DNA from: Balneola sp. EhC07
GTDB lineage: Bacteria; Bacteroidota; Rhodothermia; Balneolales; Balneolaceae
NCBI RefSeq assembly: GCF_001650905.1
Contig: NZ_LXYG01000018.1
Location: 62,001 to 126,000 of the forward strand
Direction of reading: 5' to 3'
DNA: 64,000 bases
In this document: positions 17,019 through 42,305 of the stretch, piece by piece
How the letters are laid out: every line of letters begins with the position of its first letter
Numbering within the stretch: the first letter of the stretch is position 1
Program-made: the position numbers and the translations under genes
Notes under the pieces: generated by a model
Database searches by the model: none
Told to the model about the DNA's origin: nothing
What the model saw: only the letters and a program-made list of their open reading frames with translations

Positions 17019-19862
17019 ATGGCTGGGATAAAATTTTTGATTAATAGTAATAGTAGGATAAAAGCTCTTTTAGTTTTTATATGCTGCTTTCTTTTTCCCT
17101 CTCAAATAAGTTTAGCTCAGAATACAGGTGGTTTGTATGGGACTATTAAAGACTCAACAAGCAGTGAGGTAATATTCGGGGCAAATATTTTTATTCTAGA
17201 TCTTTTAAAAGGAACGGCTACTGGAGAGAATGGAAGCTACGAAATAAATAATATTCCTACCGGGAGATATCAAATTCGGTTATCTTACATCGGTTATATT
17301 CAAAAAGTTATTACCGTTGAGATAGAGCCGAATACAAGAAAAGAATTAAACATAAAACTTCAACCGGAAATTTATGAGGGTGAAGAAATAACCGTTCTTG
17401 CTCAAGCTGCTGGTCAAGTTGCAGCAATAAAGCAACAAATCGAATCTAATACTATTGTCAATGTTGTTTCTAAGGAAAGGCTTGGTGAACTGCCGGATCA
17501 AAATGCGGCAGAGTCTGTAGCAAGATTGCCAGGGGTTTCTGTTCAGCGTGATGCCGGCGAAGCTTCTAAAGTAGTAGTAAGAGGACTGTCGCCAAGGTTT
17601 AATTCTATAACTGTGAACGGGATAAAATTACCGGGCTCAGGTGATGACAGATCTGTAGACTTAAGTTTGGTACCTTCTGAGGTTCTCGGTGGGATCGAAG
17701 TTTTTAAGGCATTAACACCGGATAAGGATGGTGATGCAGTTGGTGGGACAGTTAACTTATTAGTAAGAAAAGCACCGAATGATTTTAGAGGTTCTGTTAG
17801 TGCTGAGACAGGGTACAACGATTTAAGAAACGAATTCGGGCAATATAAATTTAGTCTAAATCTTAGTGACCGTTTTTTAGATGATAAACTTGGAGTTTTG
17901 GTATCCGGAAATATCCAACGTACGAATAGATCTTCTGAATTATTCGATAATAACTTACTGGTAAACCAAGCAGATTCCTCGCTAAGAACCGAAAACCTTA
18001 ATTTAGCTGATACACGTGAAACGAGAGATAAGTATGGATTCAGTGCCAGTTTAGACTATAAATTGGACGAAAATAACGAAATCTTTTTTTCATCCTTGCT
18101 TGGCAGAACTGATAGAGATGAACAGAGATATAGAAAAAGATATAGAGTTGGTAATACCAGGACAGAGTATGACTTACAGGATAGAAACCGTTTTGAATCC
18201 GTTTATTCAAACTCACTAAGTGGACGGCATAATTGGGATTTTATTGAAGTTGATTGGCAATCATCTTACTCAAATAGTTTAAGCAAAACCCCTTATTCTA
18301 ATTATTCAAGATTTATAGAAATAGGTGCCTTCAGAAATGGACTTGACGATACGAATGCTGATAGTATAGTAGCTGCTGCCAATAATGATCTAGATGAAAC
18401 CTATTTCCAATATGGTACTTTCAATACTTCAAGAAGAACTGAGGGAGATTTCACTGCGGCACTGAATACTCAAATAAATTTTAATATCACCAATAATATT
18501 GATGGTTATTTAAAATTTGGTGGCAAGTATAGAGATAAAAACAAGTTTGTAGATCAAAATGAAAACAGAACAGATTTTGAGGTTGTAAGTCAAATTGGTC
18601 AAGATAACCCTGATGACTTTGAGCTATACAATAGCACTCATATTGCTATTAGTAATTTTATCAATTCGAATTACAACACTCCGTCAATAAGTGGAAGATA
18701 TCAGATTAGCCCGGGATTAGATGCAAATGCATTGGGGGACTTTTATGATCGTTTCTCAAATTATTATGAGAGAAACAGAGTTACAGACCTTCGGGATTAT
18801 GAAGCAGGTGAAAGTATAACTGCTTTTTATGGAATGATGGAGTTCAATTTTGGACAGAGAGTTACTCTTTTGCCGGGGCTCAGGTACGAATACACTGAAA
18901 ATTATTATGACGGAAAATTTGGGAATCTAAATGGAAATCTGGGGCAAGGCGGTGTGATCTCAGATACAACAGGGGGGCAAAGTTATGGCGAGCTACTTCC
19001 TCAAGTGCATTTAAAAGTAAATATTCTTGAAGGTGTTGATCTAAGGTTAGCTTATACGGAAAGTATTTCCAGACCAAACTACGATAACTTAGTTCCATTT
19101 CAGAATGTGAATGATCCTGAACAAACTCTAAGCAGAGGTAACCCTGATCTGAAACACACTAGCGCAGTAAATTATGATGTGTTCCTTTCTTTTTATAAAA
19201 ATAGTATAGGCTACTTATCTGTGGGGTTGTTTTATAAAGAACTTGAAAATATAGATTATATAAGGACAACTAGATTACAAGAAGGAGAATTCTCAGGTTA
19301 CGAATTAACCTCTCCTGTAAACGCTGAAGGTACATCAACGGTAAAAGGTATTGAGATAGATTTTCAAACTGATTTCAGGTTTCTACCAAAGCCGTTAAAC
19401 GGGTTAATTTTATCTACAAATATAGCTTTTATCAAATCTGAAACTTTCTTTCCTGTATTCAAAATTGGACCAAGAAGCCCGGACCCACCATTCAGACCTA
19501 CAATAATCGATACAGTAAGGTCTGGGAAATTACCGGGACAGCCTGATGTAACAGCATCGTTCACTTTAGGATATGAAATAGGTCTATTCTCAGCCAGAGC
19601 ATCATTAGCGTATCAACAAGATATTTTGAATGAGATCGCCTCTACATCTTTAGGGGACGGACTTTCTGAAGGTTTTAGTTTTTGGGATTTTAGGTTAAAC
19701 CAATCTTTTAAGAGTGCTCCAAATTTGACCTTTTTCTTTAACGTAAACAACATCTTAAGTGAAAACGAACAAGATTTTATTGGTTCTGGTGATATATCAA
19801 AGAAATCGAGGGATTTTAGTTACGGACTCACTGCAAGCACAGGTATAAAAGTAAAATTTTAA
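17019..19862 (+). CDS. TonB-dependent outer-membrane receptor for oligosaccharide
   Basis: A 947-residue protein with a signal peptide (to about residue 34, FPSQISLAQ), a CarboxypepD_reg-like domain (YGTIKDSTSSEVIFGANIFI, about 38-115), a plug domain carrying LPDQNAAESVARLPGVSVQR and VVVRGLSPRFNSITVNG, and a long beta-barrel ending in GIKVKF, with the terminal Phe expected for barrel assembly. The plug motif is that of the TonB-Xanth-Caul subfamily rather than SusC. It should import oligosaccharides across the outer membrane with TonB energy. No SusD follows it; the next gene is a sorted beta-helix protein. It heads the 21-kb plus-strand catabolic arm, behind the candidate operator at 16927. 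Confidence 0.92.
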   Translation: MAGIKFLINSNSRIKALLVFICCFLFPSQISLAQNTGGLYGTIKDSTSSEVIFGANIFILDLLKGTATGENGSYEINNIPTGRYQIRLSYIGYIQKVITVEIEPNTRKELNIKLQPEIYEGEEITVLAQAAGQVAAIKQQIESNTIVNVVSKERLGELPDQNAAESVARLPGVSVQRDAGEASKVVVRGLSPRFNSITVNGIKLPGSGDDRSVDLSLVPSEVLGGIEVFKALTPDKDGDAVGGTVNLLVRKAPNDFRGSVSAETGYNDLRNEFGQYKFSLNLSDRFLDDKLGVLVSGNIQRTNRSSELFDNNLLVNQADSSLRTENLNLADTRETRDKYGFSASLDYKLDENNEIFFSSLLGRTDRDEQRYRKRYRVGNTRTEYDLQDRNRFESVYSNSLSGRHNWDFIEVDWQSSYSNSLSKTPYSNYSRFIEIGAFRNGLDDTNADSIVAAANNDLDETYFQYGTFNTSRRTEGDFTAALNTQINFNITNNIDGYLKFGGKYRDKNKFVDQNENRTDFEVVSQIGQDNPDDFELYNSTHIAISNFINSNYNTPSISGRYQISPGLDANALGDFYDRFSNYYERNRVTDLRDYEAGESITAFYGMMEFNFGQRVTLLPGLRYEYTENYYDGKFGNLNGNLGQGGVISDTTGGQSYGELLPQVHLKVNILEGVDLRLAYTESISRPNYDNLVPFQNVNDPEQTLSRGNPDLKHTSAVNYDVFLSFYKNSIGYLSVGLFYKELENIDYIRTTRLQEGEFSGYELTSPVNAEGTSTVKGIEIDFQTDFRFLPKPLNGLILSTNIAFIKSETFFPVFKIGPRSPDPPFRPTIIDTVRSGKLPGQPDVTASFTLGYEIGLFSARASLAYQQDILNEIASTSLGDGLSEGFSFWDFRLNQSFKSAPNLTFFFNVNNILSENEQDFIGSGDISKKSRDFSYGLTASTGIKVKF

Positions 19863-19917: not shown

Positions 19918-21474
19918 ATGAAATCTATGATAGATACTACAACAGTATTGAGAAAGGTGGTTATGTACGTTTGCACTATGTTTTTATTAGTATTTGTTAC
20001 TAATATTAATGTATTTGCTCAACGTACCGTCACTGTTGAACAGGGAGTGGGAACACTTAATGAAGCGATAACTAGTGATACTACAGCTACAGGAGCGAGG
20101 GTTGATTCGAACACCGTTTATGTACTATCCAGTGGAGGTACTTATTTATTGGATGGAAGTATTGAGCACAGAGGATACCACTTAACCATTGTAGCTGAAG
20201 ATGGTGCTACAGAGCGTCCTAAATTAATACCTGCCGTTGATGATGGAGGAGCATCTGACAGACCGTTCAGACCTAGAGGGGATTTAACTTTGAAAGGGCT
20301 TTACATTACTAATGAAGACGAACTTGGAGGAATTAATACAAGGATTATTAGAATTAGTGAAAACGAAGTGACTATCAGTATAGATGATTGTCATTTGGAT
20401 AAAGATGGACAAGCCGGATTCAGAGTTGATGGTGATAATGTTAATATTTTTCTAACAAATTCGATCTTAAGCAATATTGGTTCTACAAGTAGTCCAGATA
20501 ATGGACGTGGAGTAGATGATAGAGGTAATCCAATCGATACATTATGGTTCGAAAATAATACTTTCTATAATCTTACAAGTCAGGTACTGCGAGATGGCGG
20601 AGGTACTATATCTTATGCTTACATAAATCAAAATACAGCAGTAAATATTGGAAAGAATACTGCTTTTGAATTTGGACCAACCGTTAATGGTGTTTTTACA
20701 AACAACATGGTTTATAATGCTTCTTTCTTTGGTAATAACACAAATGGTGATGAGCAAATTACAGTCATTGGTTTAGATTCATTAACTACAGAGGAAACAT
20801 CAGAATTTGGTGCTCAATCGTTCTTGCTAAATAATAATAACTTTTATACTTCAACTGATGTCGTTGACGCATATCCTGATTCTGTAGAAGCCGCAGATAC
20901 ATACAATGCTACAGCTCTTGCTTACGTAACAGAACAAGGTAGTGCTTCAACAAATCTCAACGAAGAAATTACATTTACGACAGGTACTGCAAGTCCTGCA
21001 AATGTAGTTACGCAGTTTTGGAGCAATGCTGAAACACCTGATGAATTTCCAACAAGTGGCGAACCATTCGACTTTGGATATGTAAGTACTGCAGCCTCAT
21101 TTACCGGTGGTGACGATGGTCAGCAAATAGGATCATTAATATGGCATGGTGGAATTACGATCAGTAACGAAGAAGATCTTATTAAAGACACTCCGAATTC
21201 GTTTGTTCTTAAAGGGAATTATCCGAATCCGTTTAACCCAACAACCAATATATCTTTTGATCTGGAATCACCATCCACTGTATCCATAGAGGTCTTTAGT
21301 ATTATTGGGCAAAAAGTGATGACAATTCCTGCTCAAAGAATGAGTGCTGGTGCTAATCAAAGTATAATGCTTGATGCATCAGGACTTTCTTCCGGAATGT
21401 ATATTTACAGAGTGAAGGCAGTTACAGCCAACAATACCTTTGTAAATACATCCAGAATGACACTCATTAAATAA
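19918..21474 (+). CDS. Secreted beta-helix protein with type IX-like C-terminal sorting domain
   Basis: A 518-residue exported protein with a signal peptide ending near VTNINVFAQ. The middle part has many short parallel-beta-helix-like turns (LTLKGLYITNEDE, VNIFLTNSILSNIG, DTLWFENNTFYNL), a fold shared by polysaccharide lyases such as PL6 and by glycan-binding proteins. I see no catalytic triad to assign. The last 80 residues start with GNYPNPFNPTTNISF and end GMYIYRVKAVTANNT, the type A sorting domain used for secretion and surface anchoring. A strong ribosome site (AAAGGAG) lies before the ATG. Between the receptor and the depolymerase candidate, it may take the place of SusD as surface binder or be a surface lyase; neither is proven. 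Confidence 0.8.
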   Translation: MKSMIDTTTVLRKVVMYVCTMFLLVFVTNINVFAQRTVTVEQGVGTLNEAITSDTTATGARVDSNTVYVLSSGGTYLLDGSIEHRGYHLTIVAEDGATERPKLIPAVDDGGASDRPFRPRGDLTLKGLYITNEDELGGINTRIIRISENEVTISIDDCHLDKDGQAGFRVDGDNVNIFLTNSILSNIGSTSSPDNGRGVDDRGNPIDTLWFENNTFYNLTSQVLRDGGGTISYAYINQNTAVNIGKNTAFEFGPTVNGVFTNNMVYNASFFGNNTNGDEQITVIGLDSLTTEETSEFGAQSFLLNNNNFYTSTDVVDAYPDSVEAADTYNATALAYVTEQGSASTNLNEEITFTTGTASPANVVTQFWSNAETPDEFPTSGEPFDFGYVSTAASFTGGDDGQQIGSLIWHGGITISNEEDLIKDTPNSFVLKGNYPNPFNPTTNISFDLESPSTVSIEVFSIIGQKVMTIPAQRMSAGANQSIMLDASGLSSGMYIYRVKAVTANNTFVNTSRMTLIK

Positions 21475-21542: not shown

Positions 21543-24080
21543 ATGAAACTATTCAATTTTCTATTACTAGGAATCTTCTTATTAAGCTGCTCGAAACCGG
21601 TACAAAGTCCTATTGAGTTTGGATCTCAACCGTACTTTTTTGATGTTGGTGGAAGTGATTCCAATTTAAAACATTCCACAATTCTTATTACACCGGAGTT
21701 TGGGTACAGCTCTGAAAAGGGATATGGTTTTAAAGAGTCAGATCTTTCAAAATTCTATCACAAAGCTACTGAAAAGTCACGAGACGAGTTTTTAATTGAT
21801 GGAGTAGTTGGAAATAAACTTACATTTAAAGCAGATATACCTGAGGGGAAATGGTGGTTAACGATCTGGTTCGAACCAGGTATGGAAGATTCTATAACAA
21901 CTCAGCTTTACATCAATGATGTTAAAAATGAATTAAACCTACAGCCTTTTTCTTCTTCCGCTGAACCAAGAGAAACCATCCAAAAGATGTATCGTGTTAT
22001 CCAGCGTAACATTGAAGTCAAAAATGATTTTTCTTTTACGCTTAAAGGTGTGGAAGATAAAGTACGACTTCTTGGTTTTTCACTTATCCCTGCTAAAGAA
22101 GAACCTTCCAACAATGCTCAGGAAGATGCTTTTGATGAAATTCAAAACATAGGAGATTTTAGGAATACCAAAAAAGTAGATGGTTTACTTTCAATACTTG
22201 AAGATCTAAAATCTAACCCTGACAATCTAAATTTCTCTTCATATTGGATTCAGCAACTTAGTATTCTTAAAGAAGCGGAAAAATATTTTTACTATCGCGG
22301 TTGGAGTTGGGCTACAGATAAAACAGGGATGGGTTTATTTGATCATATTCCACAATCGATAGTGCTTTATGATGCATTACTGAGTTTTGATGAAGCAAAA
22401 AAACAACCACTATACAGTAAAGCTCTTTGGTACAGAGCAAGACTTTTATACTGGTTGTGGTTAGAGGGAGCAGGACCAAAAGAAGAGTTGGCAGGGAAAA
22501 GAGATCTTGCTGAAATGTTTGATCTGTTTCCTGACAATGAAATCGTGCAAATGTATAACCGTGTGAAGCTTGATCAAGCTGATGAGTTTGATACGGTGCC
22601 AAACAGATCAGCAACTCCGGAATGGGCTTCAGTTCAATGGGAACTTACTAATCGATTAAAAGATATTGTAGACTGGTGGGTTTACGAACAACAGGATGAC
22701 AATGGGGAATTCGGTGGTAAATTTGGTGATGATGTAGAAATTTTGAGATGGTGGTCTCCTCTGATTCTTTCCGGAGATGAAACTACTTATTTAGGTTGGA
22801 AACGATTAGCAGATGGTGTCTGGAATAGTTCAAAGGTGAAAAATGGATATGCAAAGAATCCAAGTGATGTAGAACATTCTTCAGAATTTATTTCAGATAC
22901 AGCACCTTTAATGGTTTTCTATACTGATGATGAAGAGTATACAAATCGATTAAAGTATTCTTCAGATTACTTCCAAAATCTATGGACTGGATTTAATGAT
23001 AATGGTGACAGGTTTTTTAAATCGGCATGGTTTAGTTCATCAGAAATTGAAACTGAAAGCCCCAAGAACAGAGATGTTTCCTACAACGCCAGAGCAACTA
23101 AAGCAGTCCGCTATTATAATTGGAAGAAAAAAGACGAAGATACCAGAAAGGCTCTTATAGAATGGGCTGATGCATGGGTTGATATTTCAAAAAGCACTGA
23201 AAAGTCTAAACCATTTGGCATAATTCCTCCTTCAGTTGAGTTTCCAACTGGAAAAATTAATGGGGATGAACCAACTTGGTATATAGCTAACATGTACTGG
23301 GATTATTTCAATTGGAGTGGAAGCACGGCAATTCTAGATCAACTTTTGTATACATGGACTTTTACAGCAGATGATAAATATCTGGAGCCAATATTGCTCC
23401 ATCTCGAGTTAGTTAAAAAATTCAAAGGGGATTTAAATTCAAAGAAAAATCCTTTTCAAAAAGGCTCTGAGGGTTGGGCAGCTTATATCATTGGGAATTC
23501 TTCTTCTTTTTGGAATGTAGTTGAAAACTGGCGCTTACTTACTTCAAATTCATCCTACGATACTCTGTTAACAGAACATGGTTCTGATTTTATTAAATAC
23601 AGAATAACGGGACAAGAGCAATACTTGATTAATGCAATGCAACCGTACCTTGAAACGGTAAGATATAATAAACCAATGTTGACTAGTGAGGTAATCCATA
23701 CGGATCGGGTGTTTATTAAGGAGCCAAGAGTTAGAGAGGCAGGCATTCTTCAAGGTATGATAACAGGGTATGGAGCTAATGAAAGTGCATCTCCTTACAT
23801 AGCTGTTAGCTGGGAGAAATCTAGCCGAGATTTAACCTTTCTGGTGACTGATAGTGATTCAACAAAACTGGATGTGGATTTATATTCATTTTCTGATCAA
23901 GAAGTTGAAACTACTATGAGAATTTGGCAACTCAAGCAGGGAAAGTACACGCTCGAGACTTTAATTGATGGTAAAAAGGAATCAGAGATAATAGAAGTTT
24001 TTCAACCTGGGGAAAGAGTTGAACTTAAAGTGCCATCTCATGAATTAATGACAATTAAATTAACTCCATTAAGCAAATAA
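21543..24080 (+). CDS. Large exported lipoprotein, candidate polysaccharide lyase or glycosidase of unrecognised family
   Basis: An 845-residue protein with a lipoprotein signal (LLGIFLLSCSKP, Cys about 16). Residues about 25-185 look like a beta-sandwich carbohydrate-associated domain (FDVGGSDSN, YGFKESDLSKF, GKWWLTIWF). Residues about 215-700 are rich in helix and aromatics, like an (alpha/alpha) toroid: YYRGWSWATDKTGMGLFDH, YEQQDDNGEFGGKFGDDVEI, WWSPLILSGDETTYLGW. The C-terminal 150 residues are again beta. The cluster of acids in DDNGEFGGKFGDD could be catalytic. I do not recognise the family with certainty; it is not an obvious PL8 or PL12. First of the enzyme genes after an intercistronic hairpin and 1 base before the NRAMP-like gene, it is the best candidate for the main depolymerase. 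Confidence 0.7.
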   Translation: MKLFNFLLLGIFLLSCSKPVQSPIEFGSQPYFFDVGGSDSNLKHSTILITPEFGYSSEKGYGFKESDLSKFYHKATEKSRDEFLIDGVVGNKLTFKADIPEGKWWLTIWFEPGMEDSITTQLYINDVKNELNLQPFSSSAEPRETIQKMYRVIQRNIEVKNDFSFTLKGVEDKVRLLGFSLIPAKEEPSNNAQEDAFDEIQNIGDFRNTKKVDGLLSILEDLKSNPDNLNFSSYWIQQLSILKEAEKYFYYRGWSWATDKTGMGLFDHIPQSIVLYDALLSFDEAKKQPLYSKALWYRARLLYWLWLEGAGPKEELAGKRDLAEMFDLFPDNEIVQMYNRVKLDQADEFDTVPNRSATPEWASVQWELTNRLKDIVDWWVYEQQDDNGEFGGKFGDDVEILRWWSPLILSGDETTYLGWKRLADGVWNSSKVKNGYAKNPSDVEHSSEFISDTAPLMVFYTDDEEYTNRLKYSSDYFQNLWTGFNDNGDRFFKSAWFSSSEIETESPKNRDVSYNARATKAVRYYNWKKKDEDTRKALIEWADAWVDISKSTEKSKPFGIIPPSVEFPTGKINGDEPTWYIANMYWDYFNWSGSTAILDQLLYTWTFTADDKYLEPILLHLELVKKFKGDLNSKKNPFQKGSEGWAAYIIGNSSSFWNVVENWRLLTSNSSYDTLLTEHGSDFIKYRITGQEQYLINAMQPYLETVRYNKPMLTSEVIHTDRVFIKEPRVREAGILQGMITGYGANESASPYIAVSWEKSSRDLTFLVTDSDSTKLDVDLYSFSDQEVETTMRIWQLKQGKYTLETLIDGKKESEIIEVFQPGERVELKVPSHELMTIKLTPLSK

Positions 24081-24081
24081 T

Positions 24082-25335
24082 ATGGCAAACTCCGATTCAA
24101 TTGGTCTATTTAAAAAATTTCAGCTTTTTATTATTTCGATAGGTCCCGGATTATTTATCATTGGATATAATATTGGAACCGGGAGCGTTACTTCAATGGC
24201 TTCAACAGGTGCTGAATATGGAATGGCACTTACAATCCCTTTGATAATATCGTGCATCTGTACATATATACTTATTGTTGTTTTTGGTAAATACACCATA
24301 GTAACCGGTGATACTGTTATCCATAGTTATAAGAAACACTTCGGAAAAGCAGTTGGACTTTTTGTTTTAATAGCATTGATTTTTACAGAAGCAGTGGGAA
24401 GTGTTGGTGTTATGGCGATCGTTACTCAGGTTACCCAAGAATGGACACGACCACTTACAGCTTCCGGAAATGGCATTGATCCGATTTATTCTACTATTGG
24501 ATTTGGGGCTTTACTTTACACATTACTTTGGAACGGTAAACAAAAGTTTTTTGAAAAGGTGTTGGCAATCTTTGTTGGAATAATGGGGCTAAGTTTTATT
24601 GTTACAATGTTTATGGTAATACCTGATCCTTCTCAGGTACTAACCGGAATTGTCTCGGGAATGCCAAATGAGTCTGGGGCTTTTTTGCTCGTGGCAAGTA
24701 TGGTTGGTACGACGATGGGCGCTGTTATTTATGTTGTAAGATCTGTCCTTATAAAAGGTAAAGGCTGGAATCTGGAGCATTTGAAATATGAAAAAAGAGA
24801 TGCGAAAGTTTCTGCTATTATAATGTTTGTATTGAGTATTTCAGTAATGGCGGCAGCAGCAGGTACGATGTATCAGGAAGGTATTAAAGTTGATAACGCG
24901 ATAGACATGGTAAAACTTCTTGAACCTTTTGCAGGTCGATTTGCGATTTCGATTTTTGTAGGTGGAATATTAGCCGCAGGTTTGTCATCTCTATTCCCTC
25001 ATATAATGCTGGCACCCATGTTGTTAGCCGATTATAAAGGCGAAAACCCGGATTTTACATCCACTACAAACCGATTAATATCACTAGGAATTATACTGTT
25101 AAGTTTTCTGGTGCCCATCTTAGGTGGAAGACCTGTATTCATTATGATTATTTCTCAGGTATTTATTGCTGTTATCACACCTGTAGTTATTCTATTGATG
25201 CTAATTCTTATGAATAGGGAAGAGTTGGTAGGCAAACACAAGTTATCTAAAATGAAGAATATCCTTGTTTCCTTAATACTGATTTTTTCATTGGTAATGG
25301 CTGTGTTTGGCATCATTGGAATATTTGGAATCTAA
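24082..25335 (+). CDS. NRAMP-fold transporter lacking the metal-binding motifs
   Basis: A 417-residue protein with 10-11 membrane helices of NRAMP type. It starts its first helix with IGPGLFIIGYNIGTGSV and continues TSMASTGAEYGMALTIPL, matching GPG...QAGAKYG of real NRAMP proteins. However the metal-binding DPGN of helix 1 is replaced by IGTG (about residues 31-34), and the MPH of helix 6 by MGA (MVGTTMGAVIYV, about 207-218). A manganese or iron carrier is therefore unlikely. It sits 1 base after the lipoprotein and upstream of the glucuronidase, so transport of a sugar, uronate or other organic product is inferred. NRAMP-like genes in sugar loci are often annotated as metal transporters by homology alone. 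Confidence 0.85.
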   Translation: MANSDSIGLFKKFQLFIISIGPGLFIIGYNIGTGSVTSMASTGAEYGMALTIPLIISCICTYILIVVFGKYTIVTGDTVIHSYKKHFGKAVGLFVLIALIFTEAVGSVGVMAIVTQVTQEWTRPLTASGNGIDPIYSTIGFGALLYTLLWNGKQKFFEKVLAIFVGIMGLSFIVTMFMVIPDPSQVLTGIVSGMPNESGAFLLVASMVGTTMGAVIYVVRSVLIKGKGWNLEHLKYEKRDAKVSAIIMFVLSISVMAAAAGTMYQEGIKVDNAIDMVKLLEPFAGRFAISIFVGGILAAGLSSLFPHIMLAPMLLADYKGENPDFTSTTNRLISLGIILLSFLVPILGGRPVFIMIISQVFIAVITPVVILLMLILMNREELVGKHKLSKMKNILVSLILIFSLVMAVFGIIGIFGI

Positions 25336-25358: not shown

Positions 25359-27212
25359 ATGTTATACCCCCAACAAAATAATTATAGAACAGTATTTGAT
25401 TTATCAGGTTTCTGGAAAATAAAAGCAGATCCACAAAACTTAGGGCATGACGAAAAATGGTACTCTTCAAATCTTGAAGGTGATACGCATACGATTGCAA
25501 TTCCGGGATCCTGGAATGAGCAATTGGAGGAACAGGGGCTTAAGAATTATGTTGGAAAAGCTTGGCATGAAACTACTTTTAGAATTCCACAGGCTATTCA
25601 AAAAGATCACAAAATTTGGCTGAGAATTGGTGCTGCTGATCATAAAGCTGAAGTATGGCTAAATGGTGAAAATGTTGGCAGTCATTTTGGTGGATATATG
25701 CCTTTTGGGGTAGATTTGACTGAATCTTTAAATAAATCCGGTGAAGTTAATCATCTTGTAGTTTGTGTTGATAGCTCACTAAGTATGCATTCATTGCCTC
25801 AAGGAGTAGATCCGGAGTCAGATTTATATAACACAAAAAATTATGACAGAAGGCATTTATTCCCTGCAACAAGGTTTGACTTTTTCCCTTACGGAGGCTT
25901 AACACGATCAGTAAATATTATAGCAGTACAAGAAAATCATATAACAGACATTGATGTTAATGCTAGTTTAGATGGTTCTATTGAAGTACAAGTTTCTGCT
26001 ACCTCTGATTCTTTGAAAAAACAAATAAGAATTTTAGATGAAGAAGGAAGAGAGGTTGGAAAAAGTGAAAGCTCATCCTCTGAAAATTTTGAACTCAAAA
26101 TTGACAAAGTAAATCCATGGTCTCCTTCGTCTCCATATTTATATACTGCTCAGGTGTCATTATTAAACGGTGATACAATTGTAGATCAATATGAGGAAGA
26201 GTTCGGAATTCGTGAGATTCATATAAAAGGCGGTAAAATTTATCTCAATAATGAAGAATTATTCTTAAGCGGTTTCGGTAAACACGAAGAATACCCAATA
26301 ATAGGTAGGGGACAGTTCCGTCCCGGATATATTCGTGATCATGAGCTGATGCGTTGGATCGGAGCAAATTCGTATAGAACCAGCCACTATCCTTACGATG
26401 AAGAAATGATGAGATTAGGCGATCGCTTAGGGTTCTTAATAATTGATGAAGTTCCTGCTGTAAGTTTAGGGTTTTGGTCTAACGATTTTGAAGATCTCAA
26501 TCCACTTTTAGTGAATCATAAAAAAGCTATTAAAGAGCTCATTGATAGAGACAAAAACCATCCAAGTGTCATTTCCTGGTCGATCACAAATGAGCCAAAT
26601 CTATGGGCAGAAGAGTTTTATCAAAATGAAGCAAGCGAAAAATACTTCCGGGAAATCTATGATTTTACGAAATCACTAGATAGCACCAGACCGGTTATGT
26701 CCATCTCTATGGCTGCATTTAAAGAAGATGATGTAGTAAATGATTCGTGCGATATAATTGGTATGAATCGATACTATGGTTGGTACACTAAACCTGTTGA
26801 TCTAGACCAAGCTGCTACTGATTTGGGAAGAGAATTAGAAGCTACATTTAAAAAACATGGCAAGCCGATAATGATCACAGAATTTGGCGCTGATACTGTA
26901 GAGGGGCTACATGCTACAACTGCTCAAATGTTTACTGAAGAATTTCAAACAGCATTTATCTTTAAATATCTCGAAGTGATGGAAAAATACGATTTTGTAT
27001 TTGGAGCACATGTATGGAATTTTGCGGATTTCTTAACTCCTCAACATTTCCGCCGAGTTGTCCTCAACAAAAAGGGAGTGTTTACCCGAGACAGGTTACC
27101 AAAAAGTGTAGCCTTTAAACTCAGAGAACATTGGAATAAATTCGAAAAAATTCATCCAACACATCGTCCGGAATCTCCTAAAGAGGGATTTTTAGTTAAG
27201 GATATTCATTAA
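25359..27212 (+). CDS. uidA: GH2 beta-glucuronidase (UidA-like)
   Basis: A 617-residue GH2 enzyme with the sugar-binding, immunoglobulin-like and TIM-barrel domains in order. LSGGFGKHEE-type GFGKHEEYPIIGRGQF and ELMRWIGANSYRTSHYPYDEEM closely match the E. coli beta-glucuronidase core. The acid/base is Glu412 in SITNEPN and the nucleophile Glu508 in ITEFGAD. No signal peptide is seen at MLYPQQNNYRTVF, so it works inside the cell or periplasm on imported oligosaccharides. It should remove non-reducing-end beta-D-glucuronic acid, which fits the uronate pathway at 39-49 kb. It sits in the operon 23 bases after the NRAMP-like gene and 13 bases before the next. Galacturonidase activity in this subfamily cannot be excluded. 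Confidence 0.92.
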   Translation: MLYPQQNNYRTVFDLSGFWKIKADPQNLGHDEKWYSSNLEGDTHTIAIPGSWNEQLEEQGLKNYVGKAWHETTFRIPQAIQKDHKIWLRIGAADHKAEVWLNGENVGSHFGGYMPFGVDLTESLNKSGEVNHLVVCVDSSLSMHSLPQGVDPESDLYNTKNYDRRHLFPATRFDFFPYGGLTRSVNIIAVQENHITDIDVNASLDGSIEVQVSATSDSLKKQIRILDEEGREVGKSESSSSENFELKIDKVNPWSPSSPYLYTAQVSLLNGDTIVDQYEEEFGIREIHIKGGKIYLNNEELFLSGFGKHEEYPIIGRGQFRPGYIRDHELMRWIGANSYRTSHYPYDEEMMRLGDRLGFLIIDEVPAVSLGFWSNDFEDLNPLLVNHKKAIKELIDRDKNHPSVISWSITNEPNLWAEEFYQNEASEKYFREIYDFTKSLDSTRPVMSISMAAFKEDDVVNDSCDIIGMNRYYGWYTKPVDLDQAATDLGRELEATFKKHGKPIMITEFGADTVEGLHATTAQMFTEEFQTAFIFKYLEVMEKYDFVFGAHVWNFADFLTPQHFRRVVLNKKGVFTRDRLPKSVAFKLREHWNKFEKIHPTHRPESPKEGFLVKDIH

Positions 27213-29513: not shown

Positions 29514-29649
29514 TGGAATATTAATATGGATGATCTTATTCGGAATTTTTGCATTTATTTTTTTCAGCATTGCAGCTGTTGTTGCAGTAAAAGGAGTATC
29601 AGATATCAAAGAAATTATGAATGATCCGGAGCTGAATAATCATGATTGA
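29506..29649 (+). CDS. 47-residue single-pass membrane microprotein overlapping the symporter
   Basis: A small frame starts at ATG 29506 with AGGAGG seven bases upstream. It encodes MTDGILIWMILFGIFAFIFF, then SIAAVVAVKGVSDIKEIMN and DPELNNHD. It overlaps the symporter's last codons by 8 bases and the next gene's start by 8 bases, so all three are translationally coupled. It has one membrane helix (residues 6-28) and a short charged C-terminus. Several sodium symporters have short membrane partners (for example the DUF4212/YhdT type), so an accessory subunit of the symporter is likely. Size, strong ribosome site and overlaps support a real gene; the function is inferred. Confidence 0.75.
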   Translation: MTDGILIWMILFGIFAFIFFSIAAVVAVKGVSDIKEIMNDPELNNHD

Positions 29650-30541
29650 TCCCAGAATAACTTGTTGCTATTTATATACTATAAGTAAATATGGTTACCC
29701 GCCTGCTGCTGAGGATACTCTGAAATATCTGGATGAGTATAAAAGTTTGGGTTTTCAATCGGTGGAGTTAGAGGGAATCAGAAAAGATCATCTGGAAAAA
29801 GTATATAAGATTCGTAATCAGATTGCAGTTCGAATAAAGGAACTTAAGCTGGAAGTCCCATATTTCTGCATTGTTTTGCCGGGATTATCTTCAGCAGATG
29901 CGAATGAGCGTAAAGAAAATCTTGAGCTATTTAGAAAAGGATGTGAAATAGCCCACTTACTCGGATCAAAAGGAGTGCTCGATAATGCTCCGCTGCCTCC
30001 ATACCAGTTTCCGGATGATATACCTGTTGTACGGCATTATCACGAGGATGTAATTCTATCAGCTAAATTTCCGAAGGATCTAAACTGGAAAAATTATTGG
30101 GATCAAATGGTTGAGACATACCGTGAAGCTTGTGACATAGCTTCAGAATACAATTTAACGTATCAAATGCATCCTGCACTTGGTGTTCTATCTGCTACTA
30201 CAGACGCTTTTTTATATTTTCATGATGCGGTTGGAAGGGATAATCTTCGATTTAATTTTGATACAGCCAATCAGTATTTCTTGAAAGATAATCTGCAACT
30301 GTCTCTTCGAAGACTGGCAGATTATATCGACTACATCCATATTTCTGATAACGGTGGAAATAGAGTAGAACATTTAGCTATTGGTGATGGAGTTATCAGA
30401 TGGGAGGATTTCTTTGAGACTCTGGATCTGATAAACTTTAAAGGTCATTTTGGCATTGATATCGGAGGTTCAGAATCTGTAGTTGAAGATCTGGATGCAG
30501 CTTATAAAAACGCTGCAAAATTTTTAGAAAATAAAATCTAG
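29642..30541 (+). CDS. Sugar phosphate isomerase/epimerase-like TIM-barrel protein
   Basis: A 299-residue protein of the AP-endonuclease-2-like TIM-barrel family. FQSVELEGIRKDH, YQMHPALGVLSATTD, NFDTANQY and DYIHISDNGGNRVEHLAIGDGVIRWEDFF fit the metal ligands of a sugar isomerase or epimerase (E, H/D, D, H). The family includes hydroxypyruvate isomerase, IolE/IolI and xylose isomerase-like enzymes that act on keto and inosose sugars. Its precise substrate is unknown; from context a hexuronate, hexosamine or derived keto-sugar is likely. It has no signal peptide. It begins 8 bases inside the microprotein gene and ends 4 bases before the GH20 gene. Confidence 0.8.
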   Translation: MIDPRITCCYLYTISKYGYPPAAEDTLKYLDEYKSLGFQSVELEGIRKDHLEKVYKIRNQIAVRIKELKLEVPYFCIVLPGLSSADANERKENLELFRKGCEIAHLLGSKGVLDNAPLPPYQFPDDIPVVRHYHEDVILSAKFPKDLNWKNYWDQMVETYREACDIASEYNLTYQMHPALGVLSATTDAFLYFHDAVGRDNLRFNFDTANQYFLKDNLQLSLRRLADYIDYIHISDNGGNRVEHLAIGDGVIRWEDFFETLDLINFKGHFGIDIGGSESVVEDLDAAYKNAAKFLENKI

Positions 30542-30545
30542 AGCT

Positions 30546-33110
30546 ATGAAAAAAACAGGACTTTATATCACCTTAGTTTTATTTCTTTCGATGTTGATGC
30601 AGAATACTTTTGCTCAGCAAAAATTAACGCTAGTTCCTAATCCTCGAGAAATTTCATTTAAAACAGGTTCTTTTGAGCTCAACGAGGAGATATCCATTCA
30701 AGTATTTGTTAATGATAGAGAGGAAGAATTATTTCTCATTGAACAAATTCAAAAAGAGTTTTCACAGAGTCTGGGTTTCAATTTGAAGGGTCACAAAACT
30801 AACAGACAAATCATAGTTGGAGTAAAGGGAGCAGACAAAGAATTCGATAAAATCCTCAATCGTTTTAGTTATTCATCCTATAATAAACTCGGGAAGGAAG
30901 GGTACAGATTAGTTGTTACCACAGATTTGATATTAATTGCCGCAAACTCGGAGAAAGGGACCTTCTATGGCGTTCAAACTTTAAAGCAATTGATAAGAAC
31001 AGAGCGTTTGAAAAATGAAATACCTGCCCTGGAAATTATAGATTGGCCTGATCTCGAGATCAGAGGGATGATGGACGATATAAGCCGTGGACCTGTTCCA
31101 ACTAAGGAATATATGTATCAACAGATTGAACGAATGGCTGAGATGAAAGTGAACATGCTTACTTATTATACACAAGATGTAGTGAAGACAGAAAGCCATC
31201 CTGCTTTTGCACCTCCGGGAGGAGCTTTGGATATAAAGGAGTGGTCAGAATTAGCCGAATATGCAAAAAAATATCACATAGATCTTGTAGGAAATTTTCA
31301 GTCATTTGGACACTTTGATCAAATTTTAAAGCATCCCGAATATGCACATCTGGGTGAAAGTGGAATGTTGTTATCTCCGGCGTTCGAAGAGAGTTATGAG
31401 CTACTGGAGGATATCTATACTGAAATGATTCCTGCATTCCATTCTGATTATTTTCATATCAACTCAGATGAAACCTTTGATCTTGGATCAGGAGCATCAA
31501 AAGCCATGGTTGATAGTTTAGGAGAATCTGTGGTTTACGCAAATCATATCAAGAGAATTCATAAAATTATAACAAAATTAGGCAAGAAAGTAATGATGTG
31601 GGGCGATATCGCTTTAGATCATCCTGAAATTTTGGACATGTTGCCTAAAGACATAATTCTCATTACTTGGGGTTATGATATTTTTGATGATTATGCTCCT
31701 CGGATAACCCCTTTTAAAGAAGCAGGTTTCACTCAGCTTGTTTCTACCGGAATCTTAAACTCTTTTAGTACAATACCTGATTTTAATATTGCTTTAGGGA
31801 ATATTGGCGGATTTATGGCTGAATCAAAAAAACAGGAAGTATGGGGCATGTTAAACACGGTTTGGGATGATGGAGGCTTCGCACTCTTTTCAAAGGATTG
31901 GTACGGAGTGGCATATGCTGCTGATCAAAGTTGGAACAGTGCCCCAAATGACGAATCATATGATACAAGATTTAATCGCGCAGTATATGGAAGTACAAAT
32001 AATGCATTATCTGAAGCAATTCTGAAGCTAAATGAGTTAGCCGGTTTAAAATCTACAGAGAAAATGAACGAAGACATTCTTTGGGATTCAGTGATTCCTG
32101 AAAAAGGAAATCAGGTACTTATAAATATTGAGGATTGGGCAAAGGTGCAGAGTATAGTTGAAGAAGCGCAGAGTATTTTACAAACATATGACGCTCACAT
32201 TTATTCAAGTGATGTTAAATACATACAGCATACTATCGATTTGTATAAGTTTTTAGCAAAAAGCAGACCCGCTGTTGTTGAAGCTTCAAGTTTGTATTCA
32301 AAGGCTTTTGAAGAGCAGAGCAATAAAATTGAAGCCAGAAAAAATCTTGTTGAAGCTTTTTCCTTGATCAAGGAATCCTATGATGATCTGGTCACTCTGA
32401 AATTAGACTATGAAAACGTTTGGGTGATCGAAAACAGAGTATATGCACTAGACCGAATTACTTCAAAGTTCGATGAACAACTCAAAGCATTTCAGAGTGT
32501 TAAAGATTTGTTGTTATCAACGATCTATGATTTTGATAAAGGTCAATTTCTGCCTGCTGCTTCTGAATTGAGAATGGACATCAAAGAGTCTAAAGGATGG
32601 TATTTTCAGGGTTGGCTGATGTGTGAAGCATTTCCAAATCTGAATGGCTTTGCTGATCCCAAGACTGATCATTTAGCTGATATGAACGGCATTGAAAGAA
32701 CTTTCCCAAATGTGACTGAGGAGTTTTATTTCAATGGAGATAAGTATCGGTGGAGAAGAGTAAACACGCCTTACTTTGCAAAAGTTGATCTGGGTGAAAT
32801 CCACGAAGAAAATAAGAATGTAGTTGGTTATGCTTTTGCCCACATAGATATTGAAGAAGATCGTGAAGTTAGAGCTTTGGTGGGGAGTAGTGATGGAGTA
32901 GAAGTTTTCTTGAACGGAAAACAGGTTCATCAAAACTATACGGAAAGAGACTTTAAGCTAGATGAAGATGAATTGATACTACCTTTGAAAAAGGGAAGAA
33001 ATCATTTGATGATTCGGGTAACAAATAAGGATGGAGAATGGGCTTTTAGTTTTCAATTGCCTGATTCTGAGATGAGAAGCTATAAAAATAGATATAAGAT
33101 CATAGAATGA
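30546..33110 (+). CDS. GH20 beta-N-acetylhexosaminidase, exported
   Basis: An 854-residue protein with a signal peptide (QNTFAQQ, about residue 24). Residues about 30-160 form the GH20b-type N-domain (LVPNPREISFKTGSFELN, TFYGVQTLKQLI). The catalytic barrel follows, IDWPDLEIRGMMDDISRG. The catalytic pair is Asp308-Glu309 in HINSDETFDLG, with the Glu as acid/base and the Asp positioning the substrate acetamido group. The C-terminal 350 residues contain long helical stretches and a beta-sandwich (EVRALVGSSDGVEVFLNGK). It should release terminal beta-GlcNAc or GalNAc. This activity, next to the GH2 glucuronidase, NagB and uronyl hydrolase, is the main argument for a polymer of alternating hexosamine and uronate. 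Confidence 0.9.
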   Translation: MKKTGLYITLVLFLSMLMQNTFAQQKLTLVPNPREISFKTGSFELNEEISIQVFVNDREEELFLIEQIQKEFSQSLGFNLKGHKTNRQIIVGVKGADKEFDKILNRFSYSSYNKLGKEGYRLVVTTDLILIAANSEKGTFYGVQTLKQLIRTERLKNEIPALEIIDWPDLEIRGMMDDISRGPVPTKEYMYQQIERMAEMKVNMLTYYTQDVVKTESHPAFAPPGGALDIKEWSELAEYAKKYHIDLVGNFQSFGHFDQILKHPEYAHLGESGMLLSPAFEESYELLEDIYTEMIPAFHSDYFHINSDETFDLGSGASKAMVDSLGESVVYANHIKRIHKIITKLGKKVMMWGDIALDHPEILDMLPKDIILITWGYDIFDDYAPRITPFKEAGFTQLVSTGILNSFSTIPDFNIALGNIGGFMAESKKQEVWGMLNTVWDDGGFALFSKDWYGVAYAADQSWNSAPNDESYDTRFNRAVYGSTNNALSEAILKLNELAGLKSTEKMNEDILWDSVIPEKGNQVLINIEDWAKVQSIVEEAQSILQTYDAHIYSSDVKYIQHTIDLYKFLAKSRPAVVEASSLYSKAFEEQSNKIEARKNLVEAFSLIKESYDDLVTLKLDYENVWVIENRVYALDRITSKFDEQLKAFQSVKDLLLSTIYDFDKGQFLPAASELRMDIKESKGWYFQGWLMCEAFPNLNGFADPKTDHLADMNGIERTFPNVTEEFYFNGDKYRWRRVNTPYFAKVDLGEIHEENKNVVGYAFAHIDIEEDREVRALVGSSDGVEVFLNGKQVHQNYTERDFKLDEDELILPLKKGRNHLMIRVTNKDGEWAFSFQLPDSEMRSYKNRYKIIE

Positions 33111-33871
33111 TGCTAACACACAAAGAATACAAAGCAGAGGATCTGAAAGTATCTGTTTATAAAAACAGGAATGAACTCGGTATAGCAGCAGCTTTTTATG
33201 TAGCAAGTAAGATTAATACTGTTTTGAAAAAGAAAGATGAAGTTCGAATGATTTTTGCCGCAGCTGCATCACAAAGAGAATTCCATCAGGAATTATTAAA
33301 AATAGATGATATACAATGGGAGAGAGTGGTTGCATTTCAAATGGACGAATATCACACTTTGCCACAATCTGCACCACAAAGGTTTGGTAATTTTTTAAAA
33401 GAATCCTTGTATGACCATAAAAATTTCAAAGCTGTCCATTATCTGAGTTCGGATTTACTGGAATACGAAGAATTAATTAAAGAAGCGCCAATTGATATTG
33501 TTTGTATGGGGATCGGGGAAAATGGGCATCTTGCTTTTAACGATCCTCCGGTAGCTGATTTTAACGATAGCAAGATTTTGAAAGAGGTTGAGTTAGATAA
33601 TATTTGCCGTCAGCAGCAAGTAAATGATGGTGAATTTGAAAATATTCAAGCAGTTCCTGAAAAAGCAGTTACTCTTACTATTCCTACATTACTTAATGCA
33701 GAATATCTTTCTGTGGTAGTTCCGGGTTTTTCAAAAGCTAAAGCCGTAGAAAAAACTCTTTTTGATCCTATAGAGACAAATTGTCCGTCAACCATTTTAA
33801 GAAAACAGATAAACTCACATCTGTTTTTGGATGCAGATTCCAGTAGAAACGTAATCAATAAATTATTATGA
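33107..33871 (+). CDS. nagB: Glucosamine-6-phosphate deaminase/isomerase (NagB-like)
   Basis: A 254-residue protein with MDEYHTLPQSAPQRFGNFL and GIGENGHLAFNDP (residues 135-146), the NagB active-site motifs, and AVTLTIPTLLNAEYLSVVVPG. NagB turns glucosamine-6-phosphate into fructose-6-phosphate and ammonia. A related galactosamine-6-phosphate isomerase function is possible. The start overlaps the GH20 stop by 4 bases and its end overlaps the PhyH gene, so translation is coupled throughout. No GlcNAc kinase or NagA deacetylase is in the window, so those steps must be encoded elsewhere. Confidence 0.85.
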   Translation: MMLTHKEYKAEDLKVSVYKNRNELGIAAAFYVASKINTVLKKKDEVRMIFAAAASQREFHQELLKIDDIQWERVVAFQMDEYHTLPQSAPQRFGNFLKESLYDHKNFKAVHYLSSDLLEYEELIKEAPIDIVCMGIGENGHLAFNDPPVADFNDSKILKEVELDNICRQQQVNDGEFENIQAVPEKAVTLTIPTLLNAEYLSVVVPGFSKAKAVEKTLFDPIETNCPSTILRKQINSHLFLDADSSRNVINKLL

Positions 33872-34713: not shown

Positions 34714-36498
34714 ATGAGTTCCACTTTAAAGTTTCTAGTTGTACTTCAATTGATATTTATGGGGATTTCTTGCCAGGATGTGAAGCAAGAAAAAATGACA
34801 CCTCAAAAGTATGCAGAACACGTTTCTGAAATTATTGTAAATGGAACAGATTTTCGATTTGAACCTGCACTTCAGGAATTTGAGCAGGATGGAGTTTATT
34901 TATTTGATTTTCCTTCCTCAGAAAAAGGAACATATATAGCAAGGTCTGTTATCGAAGTTGAAAAATCTGAAGACAATGATTTTAGTTTATTTCTGGCTGC
35001 CAACCAACAAGCCGGAGAACTCGAAATAATTGTTGATGGCAAATCAGTGTATAAGAATTCAAGATCTGAAGATGAATTTCTTAATCATGTGGATTACGGA
35101 TTGTTTGAATTCCATAATAAGGTGCCTTTAACGGTTGAAGATGGAGTGCATCAACTTATTATAAAATTCGAACCGAAAAATGCAGGAAATAACAGAGTTC
35201 AAATTAGCTTTATCCGTTCTGATAACGCACTCTCATATCCCGGACTTAAATTACGTTCTCCTTCAGAGGATGAAGATTTAGAACATTTCGGATATTGGTG
35301 GATTGGACCTTTACCAAACAATGGAAATTATACTGAACTTACTGACATCAATAAAACAGCTGATGAATTGGTAACTCAGGAAATAAAAGGCAAAAATGGG
35401 TCCACGATTCGTTGGGATATTCCAAAGCTTCATTTAGTTAAAAGTCTTCCGGGATGGCTTACGTATCAAAATTGGCATTATTCAGGAGGAACTTTTCTGG
35501 ATGCAATGGAGCAGGTTGGGGATCAGTTTTCAGATCTTGATTACAGTAATTATATCGAGCAACATCGTAATTTTCTTGCCGATAATATTGATGAAATTGA
35601 GTCCATGAGAAATGATTATGGATTAATTGAAGGACCTTTTGGGCATTATTTCAGAGCATCACTGTTAGATGATATGGGTATGCAAACAGTTCCTTATGCG
35701 AACAAACTCATAGCCTCGAATCCGGATAATCGAGATCCTGATAGCTTCGAATATAAGCTTACAAATCGTGTGGTTGATCATATAATGAACAAAGCGTCCA
35801 GACTTTCTGATGGAACTTTTGCTCGATTTACACCGGATACTATGTCTGTATGGGCAGATGATCTATTTATGGGATCTATCGTTCTTTTAAAAATGACAGA
35901 GCTCACCGGTGATGAAAAATATCTGAACGAGGTCATAAAACAGGTTATTCAGTTCGATAATTATCTATTAAATGAAGAAGACAATCTTTACTGGCATGGA
36001 TACTTTTCAAAAACAGATGAATATTCATCAACGAAATGGGGCAGAGCTAATGGCTGGACCATGATGACTAAAACTGAGCTATTAAAAGTATTACCTGAAG
36101 AGCATCCAAAAAGAGCGGAAATACTTAATATTTTCAAACGTCATGCTGAAGGATTAAAAGCTGTTCAATCACAAGATGGAAGATGGCATCAAGTACTTGA
36201 TGATCCGGAATCTTATTTGGAAACTTCAGCAACAGCAATGTTTGTAAGAGCTTTTGCCGCCGGAATAAACGAAGGTTGGTTATCTAAGGATGAATTCGAA
36301 GAATCAACAATTCAAGGTTGGAACTCACTTACTAAGCAAATGGATGAAAATGGTGATATTATCGGAATAGTCAGAGGAACTCCGATCATGTTTTCTGACG
36401 AAGAATATCAAAATTGGGGAACTCGTAAAAACGATCCCAGAGGATTAGGAGCACTACTTTACGCAGCAATTGAAATGGATAGATTATTAACGAAATAA
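34714..36498 (+). CDS. GH105/GH88-type unsaturated uronyl hydrolase, lipoprotein
   Basis: A 594-residue protein with a lipoprotein signal (LIFMGISCQD). Residues about 30-185 are a beta-rich N-domain, and the (alpha/alpha)6 toroid follows. TMSVWADDLFMGSIVLLKM (Asp382/383) and TKWGRANGWTMMTKTELLK (WGRANGW at 442-448) match the GH105/GH88 core; the catalytic aspartate is likely among the conserved D residues of VWADD. It should hydrolyse the 4,5-unsaturated uronic acid left at the non-reducing end by a polysaccharide lyase. The product spontaneously opens and is fed to KduI/KduD, which are encoded at 41-43 kb. Its presence implies that a lyase, perhaps the lipoprotein at 21543 or the beta-helix protein, makes the first cut. 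Confidence 0.88.
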   Translation: MSSTLKFLVVLQLIFMGISCQDVKQEKMTPQKYAEHVSEIIVNGTDFRFEPALQEFEQDGVYLFDFPSSEKGTYIARSVIEVEKSEDNDFSLFLAANQQAGELEIIVDGKSVYKNSRSEDEFLNHVDYGLFEFHNKVPLTVEDGVHQLIIKFEPKNAGNNRVQISFIRSDNALSYPGLKLRSPSEDEDLEHFGYWWIGPLPNNGNYTELTDINKTADELVTQEIKGKNGSTIRWDIPKLHLVKSLPGWLTYQNWHYSGGTFLDAMEQVGDQFSDLDYSNYIEQHRNFLADNIDEIESMRNDYGLIEGPFGHYFRASLLDDMGMQTVPYANKLIASNPDNRDPDSFEYKLTNRVVDHIMNKASRLSDGTFARFTPDTMSVWADDLFMGSIVLLKMTELTGDEKYLNEVIKQVIQFDNYLLNEEDNLYWHGYFSKTDEYSSTKWGRANGWTMMTKTELLKVLPEEHPKRAEILNIFKRHAEGLKAVQSQDGRWHQVLDDPESYLETSATAMFVRAFAAGINEGWLSKDEFEESTIQGWNSLTKQMDENGDIIGIVRGTPIMFSDEEYQNWGTRKNDPRGLGALLYAAIEMDRLLTK

Positions 36499-39636: not shown

Positions 39637-40671
39637 CTATCTTTCCACTCGACCACTGCCGCCACTGGTCATTAGTTTTTCAACTTCATTTGCGCTAACG
39701 AGATTAAAATCTCCGGGTATAGTTTGCTTCAAACATGAGGCTGCAACTGCAAACTCTAATGCTTCTTTTGTATTATTCTTACTGAGTAGACCATAAATAA
39801 GTCCACTTGCAAAAGAGTCACCACCTCCAACTCTGTCCACAAGCTGAATATCGTACTGTGAAGATCTGTGAGGATCCATGCAGTCTTTATTATCATGTAG
39901 AATAGCACTCCAACCATTTTTTGAAGCGGAATGACTTTCTCTTAACGTAATTGCCACTGTATCAAAATCGTATTTCGATTTCAATTTTTTAGCTAGTTCA
40001 TAATATCCTTTTTCGTCCAGTTCTGCTGTTTCTACATCAGTTCCATCAGCTTTTAATCCAAGGCTTTTATCAGCGTCTTCTTCATTCGCTATACAAACAT
40101 CAACGTATTCCATTAATGGGTTCATAACATACTGGGCCTCTTTGGTTGTCCAAAGTTTGCTTCTGAAATTAAGATCACAGCTAACAGTAACTCCCGCATT
40201 TTTTGCTGCTTTACAAGCTGATAAAACATTACTCTGTGCCAGCTTTCCCAGAGCAGGAGTAATTCCTGTCCAATGAAACCAGTCCTTGTTTTCAAAAACC
40301 TTATTCCAATTTACTTCTTCATTCTCCATTAACATTACAGCTGAATTTGCTCGGTCATAGATTACTTTTGAAGGTCGTTGACTAGCTCCCGTTTCTAAAA
40401 AATAAATTCCAAGTCGATCACCACCACGAACGATGTACTCCGTACTAACACCAAATTTTCTAAGTTGATTAACTGCAGATTGCCCTATTTCATGATTAGG
40501 TATTTTAGAAACAAAGTGGCATTGTAAACCATAGTTGCTTAATGCTACAGCCACGTTAGCTTCCCCACCACCATAATTAATATCAAGAGTTTGAGATTGA
40601 ACAAATCGTGAAAATCCGGGAGTGGATAATCTCAACATGATTTCTCCAAATGTGACAACTTGTTTTGACAT
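39637..40671 (-). CDS. kdgK: 2-keto-3-deoxygluconate kinase (PfkB family)
   Basis: A 344-residue PfkB-type sugar kinase that starts MSKQVVTFGEIMLRLSTPG, contains NYGGGEANVAVALSNYG and HWTGITPALG, and ends its active site with RVGGGDSFASGLIYGLL, where the Asp is the catalytic base. In the KDG branch it phosphorylates 2-keto-3-deoxygluconate to KDPG, which the adjacent aldolase splits. The stop is close to a candidate operator and the regulator follows in the same direction. It lies 4 bases after the eda gene, so both are co-transcribed. Sugar kinases of this family are close in sequence, but the neighbour genes make the KDG assignment firm. Confidence 0.88.
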   Translation of the reverse strand: MSKQVVTFGEIMLRLSTPGFSRFVQSQTLDINYGGGEANVAVALSNYGLQCHFVSKIPNHEIGQSAVNQLRKFGVSTEYIVRGGDRLGIYFLETGASQRPSKVIYDRANSAVMLMENEEVNWNKVFENKDWFHWTGITPALGKLAQSNVLSACKAAKNAGVTVSCDLNFRSKLWTTKEAQYVMNPLMEYVDVCIANEEDADKSLGLKADGTDVETAELDEKGYYELAKKLKSKYDFDTVAITLRESHSASKNGWSAILHDNKDCMDPHRSSQYDIQLVDRVGGGDSFASGLIYGLLSKNNTKEALEFAVAASCLKQTIPGDFNLVSANEVEKLMTSGGSGRVER

Positions 40672-40675
40672 GATC

Positions 40676-41323: not shown

Positions 41324-41330
41324 CAGCTAA

Positions 41331-42269: not shown

Positions 42270-42305
42270 TGGTATTATTTATTTTGAATTCAAATTAAAT
42301 GTGTG

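Follow-up and report, generated by a model that had tools for sequence, protein, structure and literature searches.

An 845-residue lipoprotein of Balneola sp. EhC07, designated P0001, is a candidate depolymerase of a new family, as judged from its open reading frame, its orthologs and the lack of a family match. It is encoded at positions 21543..24080 (+ strand) of the 64,000-nucleotide stretch of contig NZ_LXYG01000018.1 that we analyzed (hereafter, the window). We see an even chance that P0001 represents a new toroid family of carbohydrate-active enzymes (CAZymes), most likely a lyase that cuts an unsulfated polymer of glucuronic acid (GlcA) and N-acetylhexosamine (HexNAc). The exported lipoprotein would consist of a galactose-binding-like N-domain, a core folded as an (alpha/alpha)-toroid and, C-terminally, a beta domain, and would cleave a hyaluronan- or chondroitin-like GlcA/HexNAc polymer by beta-elimination at the uronic acid. 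The 4,5-unsaturated oligosaccharides produced would be opened by the neighbouring GH88, and the unsaturated uronate would then be catabolised by KduI, KduD, KdgK and KDPG aldolase; GH2 and GH20 would trim saturated ends, and NagB would take the amino sugar. If this is true, P0001 defines a lyase family that targets glucuronic-acid/amino-sugar polymers and is invisible to Pfam-based annotation, and explains how substrates are degraded by Balneolales clusters that possess GH88 but no annotated lyase.

Identification of P0001 and its relatives

The reading frame of P0001 is intact and starts with ATG, and its product begins with a signal peptide and the lipobox L-L-S-C16 (21543..21590, + strand); in the alignment, the Balneolales relatives have a Cys at about the same place as Cys16. 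Orthologs from six other Balneolales genomes (L002, L003, L004, L013, L014 and L027) are 55–63% identical to P0001 and keep its full length, and P0001 is thus a real gene and not a chance frame. The initial annotation, which had described the product as an 845-residue lipoprotein, was correct in this respect.

Relatives with 29–40% identity are spread over two other groups of the phylum: f25 (G066, G243, G484 and G487; 34–40%, with the G487 relative split in two pieces) and f24 (G780 and G798; 29%). A member from G480 is also 29% identical. The most remote relatives are the LamG/CARDB proteins (18–19% identical), one of which is encoded on an Asticcacaulis plasmid; an hhalign comparison of the P0001 family with this group gave 100% probability and 1.8e-41 over 541 columns. 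No further relatives usable for AlphaFold2 (AF2) were found in the viral contigs scanned. The large LamG/CARDB proteins (L028, L029, L031, L032, L034 and L055:10096-13821), of which G594 has several paralogs, share the invariant E/D/D/D/H/E site of P0001 but have no assigned function, and the present analysis brings to attention the larger unannotated superfamily to which they belong.

P0001 had no match in Pfam and nothing above or near the cut-off in NCBIfam, and its body had no meaningful match in the PDB by phmmer or profile searches. An NCBIfam match to GrpE (E 0.046) and a PDB match to a VEGFA binder (E 0.63) were dismissed as chance. None of these databases gave a confident match to a non-catalytic family or to one with fixed activity, the kind of match that the initial annotation had regarded as contrary to its proposal. 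Our literature searches, which largely did not reach subscription papers, found no description of the family. The family is unnamed in Pfam, NCBIfam and the PDB, and an existing CAZy family (for example GH154, PL29, PL30 or PL37) may cover P0001, since the PDB search says nothing on CAZy families that lack a solved structure.

Gene cluster and predicted pathway

On the + strand of the window, P0001 is preceded by genes for a TonB-dependent receptor (17019..19862; TIGR01782, 419.6 bits, cut-off 310) and a secreted protein with a T9SS sorting domain and a beta-helix-like sequence (19918..21474), which is probably a surface glycan-binding component. A hairpin with a short T-rich tail lies between the beta-helix gene and P0001 (21501-21526, + strand); it is possibly an attenuator that splits the receptor genes from the enzyme genes, with such matches occurring regionally near chance level. 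Downstream of P0001, the same strand encodes an Nramp-family protein (24082..25335; PF01566), a UidA-type GH2 beta-glucuronidase (25359..27212; NF007538, 609 bits, cut-off 544), a xylose-isomerase-like TIM barrel that serves as a cluster marker by co-occurrence (29642..30541; PF01261), a GH20 beta-N-acetylhexosaminidase (30546..33110; PF00728 and PF02838), a NagB-like glucosamine-6-phosphate deaminase (33107..33871; PF01182) and a GH88/GH105 unsaturated uronyl hydrolase (34714..36498; PF07470, E 6.8e-72). GATase1-like, SSF (twice) and PhyH proteins are also encoded in the cluster. The divergent arm encodes a GntR/LacI-type regulator, DUF4861, a TRAP transporter subunit and the enzymes of unsaturated uronate catabolism, namely KdgK, KDPG aldolase, KduI and KduD (39637..43073, - strand; Pfam). 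P0001 is the first of the enzyme genes in the window, as had been noted initially; at the locus of its relative L005, a GH2 gene lies ahead.

The presence of UidA-type GH2, GH20, NagB, GH88 and the Kdu genes, together with the absence of any sulfatase motif from the neighbourhoods scanned, points to an unsulfated polymer of beta-linked GlcA and HexNAc, similar to hyaluronan or unsulfated chondroitin, as the substrate of the cluster. GH88, KduI and KduD process unsaturated uronate, which is generated by lyases. The initial annotation had argued that the GH105/88 hydrolase requires a lyase and that none could be named at the locus. Both points stand: the cluster needs a source of unsaturated uronate, and Pfam identified no known lyase at the locus, nor did profile searches of the host genome detect PF07940, PF05426 or PF14592. 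A search of the host genome for PF02278 (PL8) was also silent, as was its positive control, and is therefore uninformative. The sole PF07940 match among the Balneolales carriers of P0001, found in G115, lies ~80 kb off the cluster beside a glycosyltransferase-like gene; it probably serves polysaccharide biosynthesis and was rejected as a candidate. Because the pathway demands a lyase and no other Balneolales candidate fits, elimination is likelier than hydrolysis for P0001.

The Nramp-like gene is kept directly 3' of P0001 in Balneolales and occurs in the f25 clusters too. In its product, DPGN and MPH, which we take to be the metal-site motifs of TM1 and TM6 of Nramp, are replaced by NIGTG and GAV, respectively; Mn2+ is thus probably not its substrate, which may instead be a sugar or a sugar acid. 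This loss of the metal-site motifs also led us to drop the idea of a metal-supply role for the gene.

Two further protein families recur in these clusters. An AGE/GH88-like toroid protein of ~415 aa (L037:4259-5503, L074:17006-18292, L076:14335-15582 and L089:9683-10948), with weak matches to GH88, GH127, C5-epimerase and PL10, is part of the HexNAc module in groups f25, f24 and f32, even where P0001 is absent. An unnamed family of ~600-640 aa with no Pfam match (L036:18100-19899, L084:2716-4626, L088:17905-19755 and L087:14381-16273) is possibly another toroid enzyme.

Co-occurrence of P0001 and GH88

The isomerase of the P0001 cluster provided an independent probe for such clusters. In a sample of 385 genomes, it detected only the eight P0001 carriers plus G179 and G272, and wider sampling added G780, G798, G407 and G517. 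GH88 and NagB were present within the cluster in all 12 P0001 carriers with an adequate contig (G000, G161, G003, G020, G115, G203, G066, G243, G484, G487, G798 and G780); G541, G480 and G510, with short contigs, are outside this count. In G798, the stop codon of GH88 overlaps the start of the P0001-family gene as ATGA. The HexNAc module is also present in G179 and G272, which lack P0001, GH88, KduI and KduD in the ~40 kb read. The resulting counts (12/0/1/2) correspond to a one-sided chance of ~0.03 (3/105), a value to be read with the relatedness, and hence the non-independence, of the genomes in mind.

This tight co-occurrence favours P0001 as the lyase in a supportive, not decisive, manner. 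The same co-occurrence with GH88 would be expected of a partner hydrolase, and G407 has GH88 without P0001, both of which count against the lyase reading. In G407, a DUF1565/beta-helix protein (L084:16745-18493) is encoded directly ahead of the Nramp-like gene and is possibly a replacement lyase. Several f25 clusters, including that of G407, also contain a PL22-like gene that could supply unsaturated uronate, so that P0001 need not be the sole source there.

Many lyases are found among beta-helix proteins, and the beta-helix-like protein encoded at 19918-21474 has its own export signal; this protein could be a PL6- or PL9-like lyase to which P0001 is accessory. We regard this explanation as very unlikely. 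The protein had no lyase match in PDB profile or Pfam searches, and its occurrence is not linked to that of GH88: G179 has the protein but no GH88, and it was not detected in G243, G798 or G780, whose clusters contain GH88. In addition, a relative (31% identical over 368 aa) is encoded at an alginate-lyase locus, in keeping with a general role at the surface. For the protein itself, AF2 produced a model whose confidence (pLDDT 30.1) is too low to give a fold.

Domain organization

The AF2 model of P0001, made from an alignment of two sequences, has a pLDDT of 36.6 and is usable for secondary structure only. It displays strands at residues 48-183, helices at 191-708 and strands at 764-842, which at that level matches the beta/helical/beta layout read from the sequence in the initial annotation. 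The N-terminal beta domain (residues 24-183; 21612..22091, + strand) appears galactose-binding-like and of the AGA-YXIM/CE12 type, as indicated by hhalign with the CE12 N-domain (91.5%, 8.8e-7) and by a profile search that matched yxiM 2o14 (E 0.017). One family member had a weak Pfam match to the AGA-YXIM domain (E 0.12), and the CE12-type protein L018 matches PF21254.

The helical region comprises an extra segment, assigned from secondary structure alone (residues 191-321; 22113..22505, + strand), and a core (residues 322-710; 22506..23672, + strand), after which the C-terminal beta domain, also delimited by secondary structure, starts near HTDRV (residues 711-845; 23673..24077, + strand). 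The alignment with the remote LamG/CARDB group begins at about residue 322, which suggests a core of ~390 residues followed by the C-terminal beta domain.

We scored a profile covering residues 330-715 against 13 local families and against reversed decoys of each. Five toroid or presumed-toroid families ranked at the top, namely the AGE-like (p 0.0006), GH88 (p 0.003), unnamed 600-aa (p 0.006), heparinase-type (p 0.058) and alginate-lyase-type (p 0.076) families, above eight non-toroid controls and all decoys, which had p values of ~0.2 or higher. Most of the similarity comes from a single helical hairpin (TGDxxYL), so that the matches support the fold class only; for the same reason, the GH88 match was discarded as a guide to the active site. 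The helical core is probably an (alpha/alpha)-toroid, as judged from this weak profile signal and the low-confidence model. The toroid proposed for the middle of the protein in the initial annotation accordingly gained a weak signal but no confident structural model.

Conserved residues and predicted active site

Conservation was assessed in 19 sequences, which include 14 members of the family proper and proteins of the remote LamG-type group. The invariant columns include E308, Q384, G388, E389, G391, G392, D396, D397, D442, H445, E448, S494, D721 and R722, and E389, D396, D397, D442, H445 and E448 are unchanged even in the relatives with 18% identity. Most of these residues fall in two motifs on the + strand, GEFGGKFGDD (residues 388-397; 22704..22733; G388, E389, G391, G392, D396 and D397 invariant) and DVEHSSE (residues 442-448; 22866..22886; D442, H445 and E448 invariant). 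In the acid cluster DDNGEFGGKFGDD, which had been described as conserved, the second half (E389, G391, G392, D396 and D397) is indeed kept throughout as GE(F/L/I)GG(K/G)xxDD, but its first two Asp residues, D385 and D386, vary. The family proper has additional invariant residues: K393, E399, R402, E444, D452, R490, K493, D511, R517, K556 and Y588. Six of them are basic (K393, R402, R490, K493, R517 and K556), and most of the six are lost in the remote group. H445 is the sole His that is invariant in the 19 sequences.

Taken together, we predict an active site around E389, D396/D397, D442, H445, E448 and Y588, with K393, R402, R490, K493, R517 and K556 lining the pocket. More tentatively, P0001 may found a lyase family, present in Balneolales and in bacteria of the same phylum, that acts on an unsulfated glycosaminoglycan-like polymer with a site unlike that of any known toroid lyase. 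In such a site, H445 in the toroid would be flanked by carboxylates and basic residues, possibly forming a metal site.

The abundance of carboxylates in the site, as in hydrolases, counts against the lyase reading, and a carboxylate-rich site without canonical lyase residues keeps a hydrolase plausible. P0001 could be an (alpha/alpha)6-barrel glycoside hydrolase with two carboxylates (e.g., E389 and D442 or E448) that acts on the same polysaccharide to release a glucuronosyl, hexosaminyl or unsaturated uronyl unit, with another protein as the lyase; we consider this possible but rather unlikely. Apart from one His, the charged residues that are invariant in the 19 sequences are mainly carboxylates, and the beta/toroid/beta layout is also known from GH65/GH94/GH15-type hydrolases. 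The strongest profile signals came from GH88 and AGE/GH88-like proteins and not from alginate-lyase or heparinase profiles, although these are short signals that stem from a helical hairpin of a generic kind. Moreover, a hydrolase would leave the cluster without the lyase that GH88, KduI and KduD need, and the anticipated exo steps are already accounted for by GH2, GH20 and GH88.

It is hardly probable that P0001 is non-catalytic, functioning in surface glycan binding, or epimerase-like, catalysing C5-epimerisation of a uronic acid. In favour of such a role, the N-terminal domain of this lipoprotein is of a binding type, and PL33-type lyases and DS-epimerase have a common fold (PMC11848413). 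A set of charged motifs that stays invariant down to 18% identity would be unusual for a mere binding protein, and the weak Pfam match to C5-epimerase (E 0.036) was found in only one of the 19 members.

Comparison with known systems

In the toroid, known lyases of this kind employ a neutralising Asn (or an equivalent residue) and a Tyr, to which most families add a catalytic His of the C-terminal beta domain, such as H444 in PL33 and H401 in PL35 (PMC12088678, PMC11848413). P0001 resembles the PL33, PL12, PL15, PL17, PL21 and PL35 lyases in its predicted plan, with a beta domain after a helical toroid, and in the kind of substrate expected, and differs from them in sequence and site. Pfam, PDB phmmer and profile searches gave no match to toroid lyases (PL8/12/15/17/21/33/35), and hhalign comparisons with local alginate-lyase and heparinase-type sets were below significance. 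As for the Asn/Tyr pair, Y588 is invariant in the P0001 family and no Asn is, with both N515 and N509 varying. No His is conserved in the C-terminal beta domain among the 19 sequences; H719, at the start of this domain, is replaced by F in L021, L087 and L089 and by W in the LamG group. Without the C-terminal-domain His, and with no invariant Asn, P0001 cannot be placed among the known PL12/15/17/33/35-type lyases. The proposal of a new depolymerase in the initial annotation is partly supported, by the acidic motif, the lack of a known family, the weak toroid signal, the need of the cluster for unsaturated uronate and the co-occurrence with GH88, but the conserved site is unlike those of known toroid lyases.

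GH88/GH105 proteins are encoded in the same cluster as P0001 and have weak profile similarity to it in the toroid hairpin (p 2.6e-4 and 3.1e-3). The aligned part spans 64-99 columns and includes no catalytic motif common to P0001, and none of the 19 members matched PF07470 at E values up to 10. The N-terminal beta domain of P0001 has profile similarity to that of AGA-YXIM_GBD (PF21254)/CE12 esterases; P0001 itself gave no match to the Pfam model and has no esterase domain.

The LamG/CARDB proteins (e.g., WP_226746311.1 from Asticcacaulis; L023, L028 and L031) differ from P0001 in that K393, R402, R517, E444 and D452 are lost, some have LamG and CARDB domains, and neither GH88 nor Kdu genes are prominent in the contexts seen. 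They nevertheless have a homologous core and C-terminal beta domain, in which E389, D396, D397, D442, H445 and E448 of P0001 are invariant.
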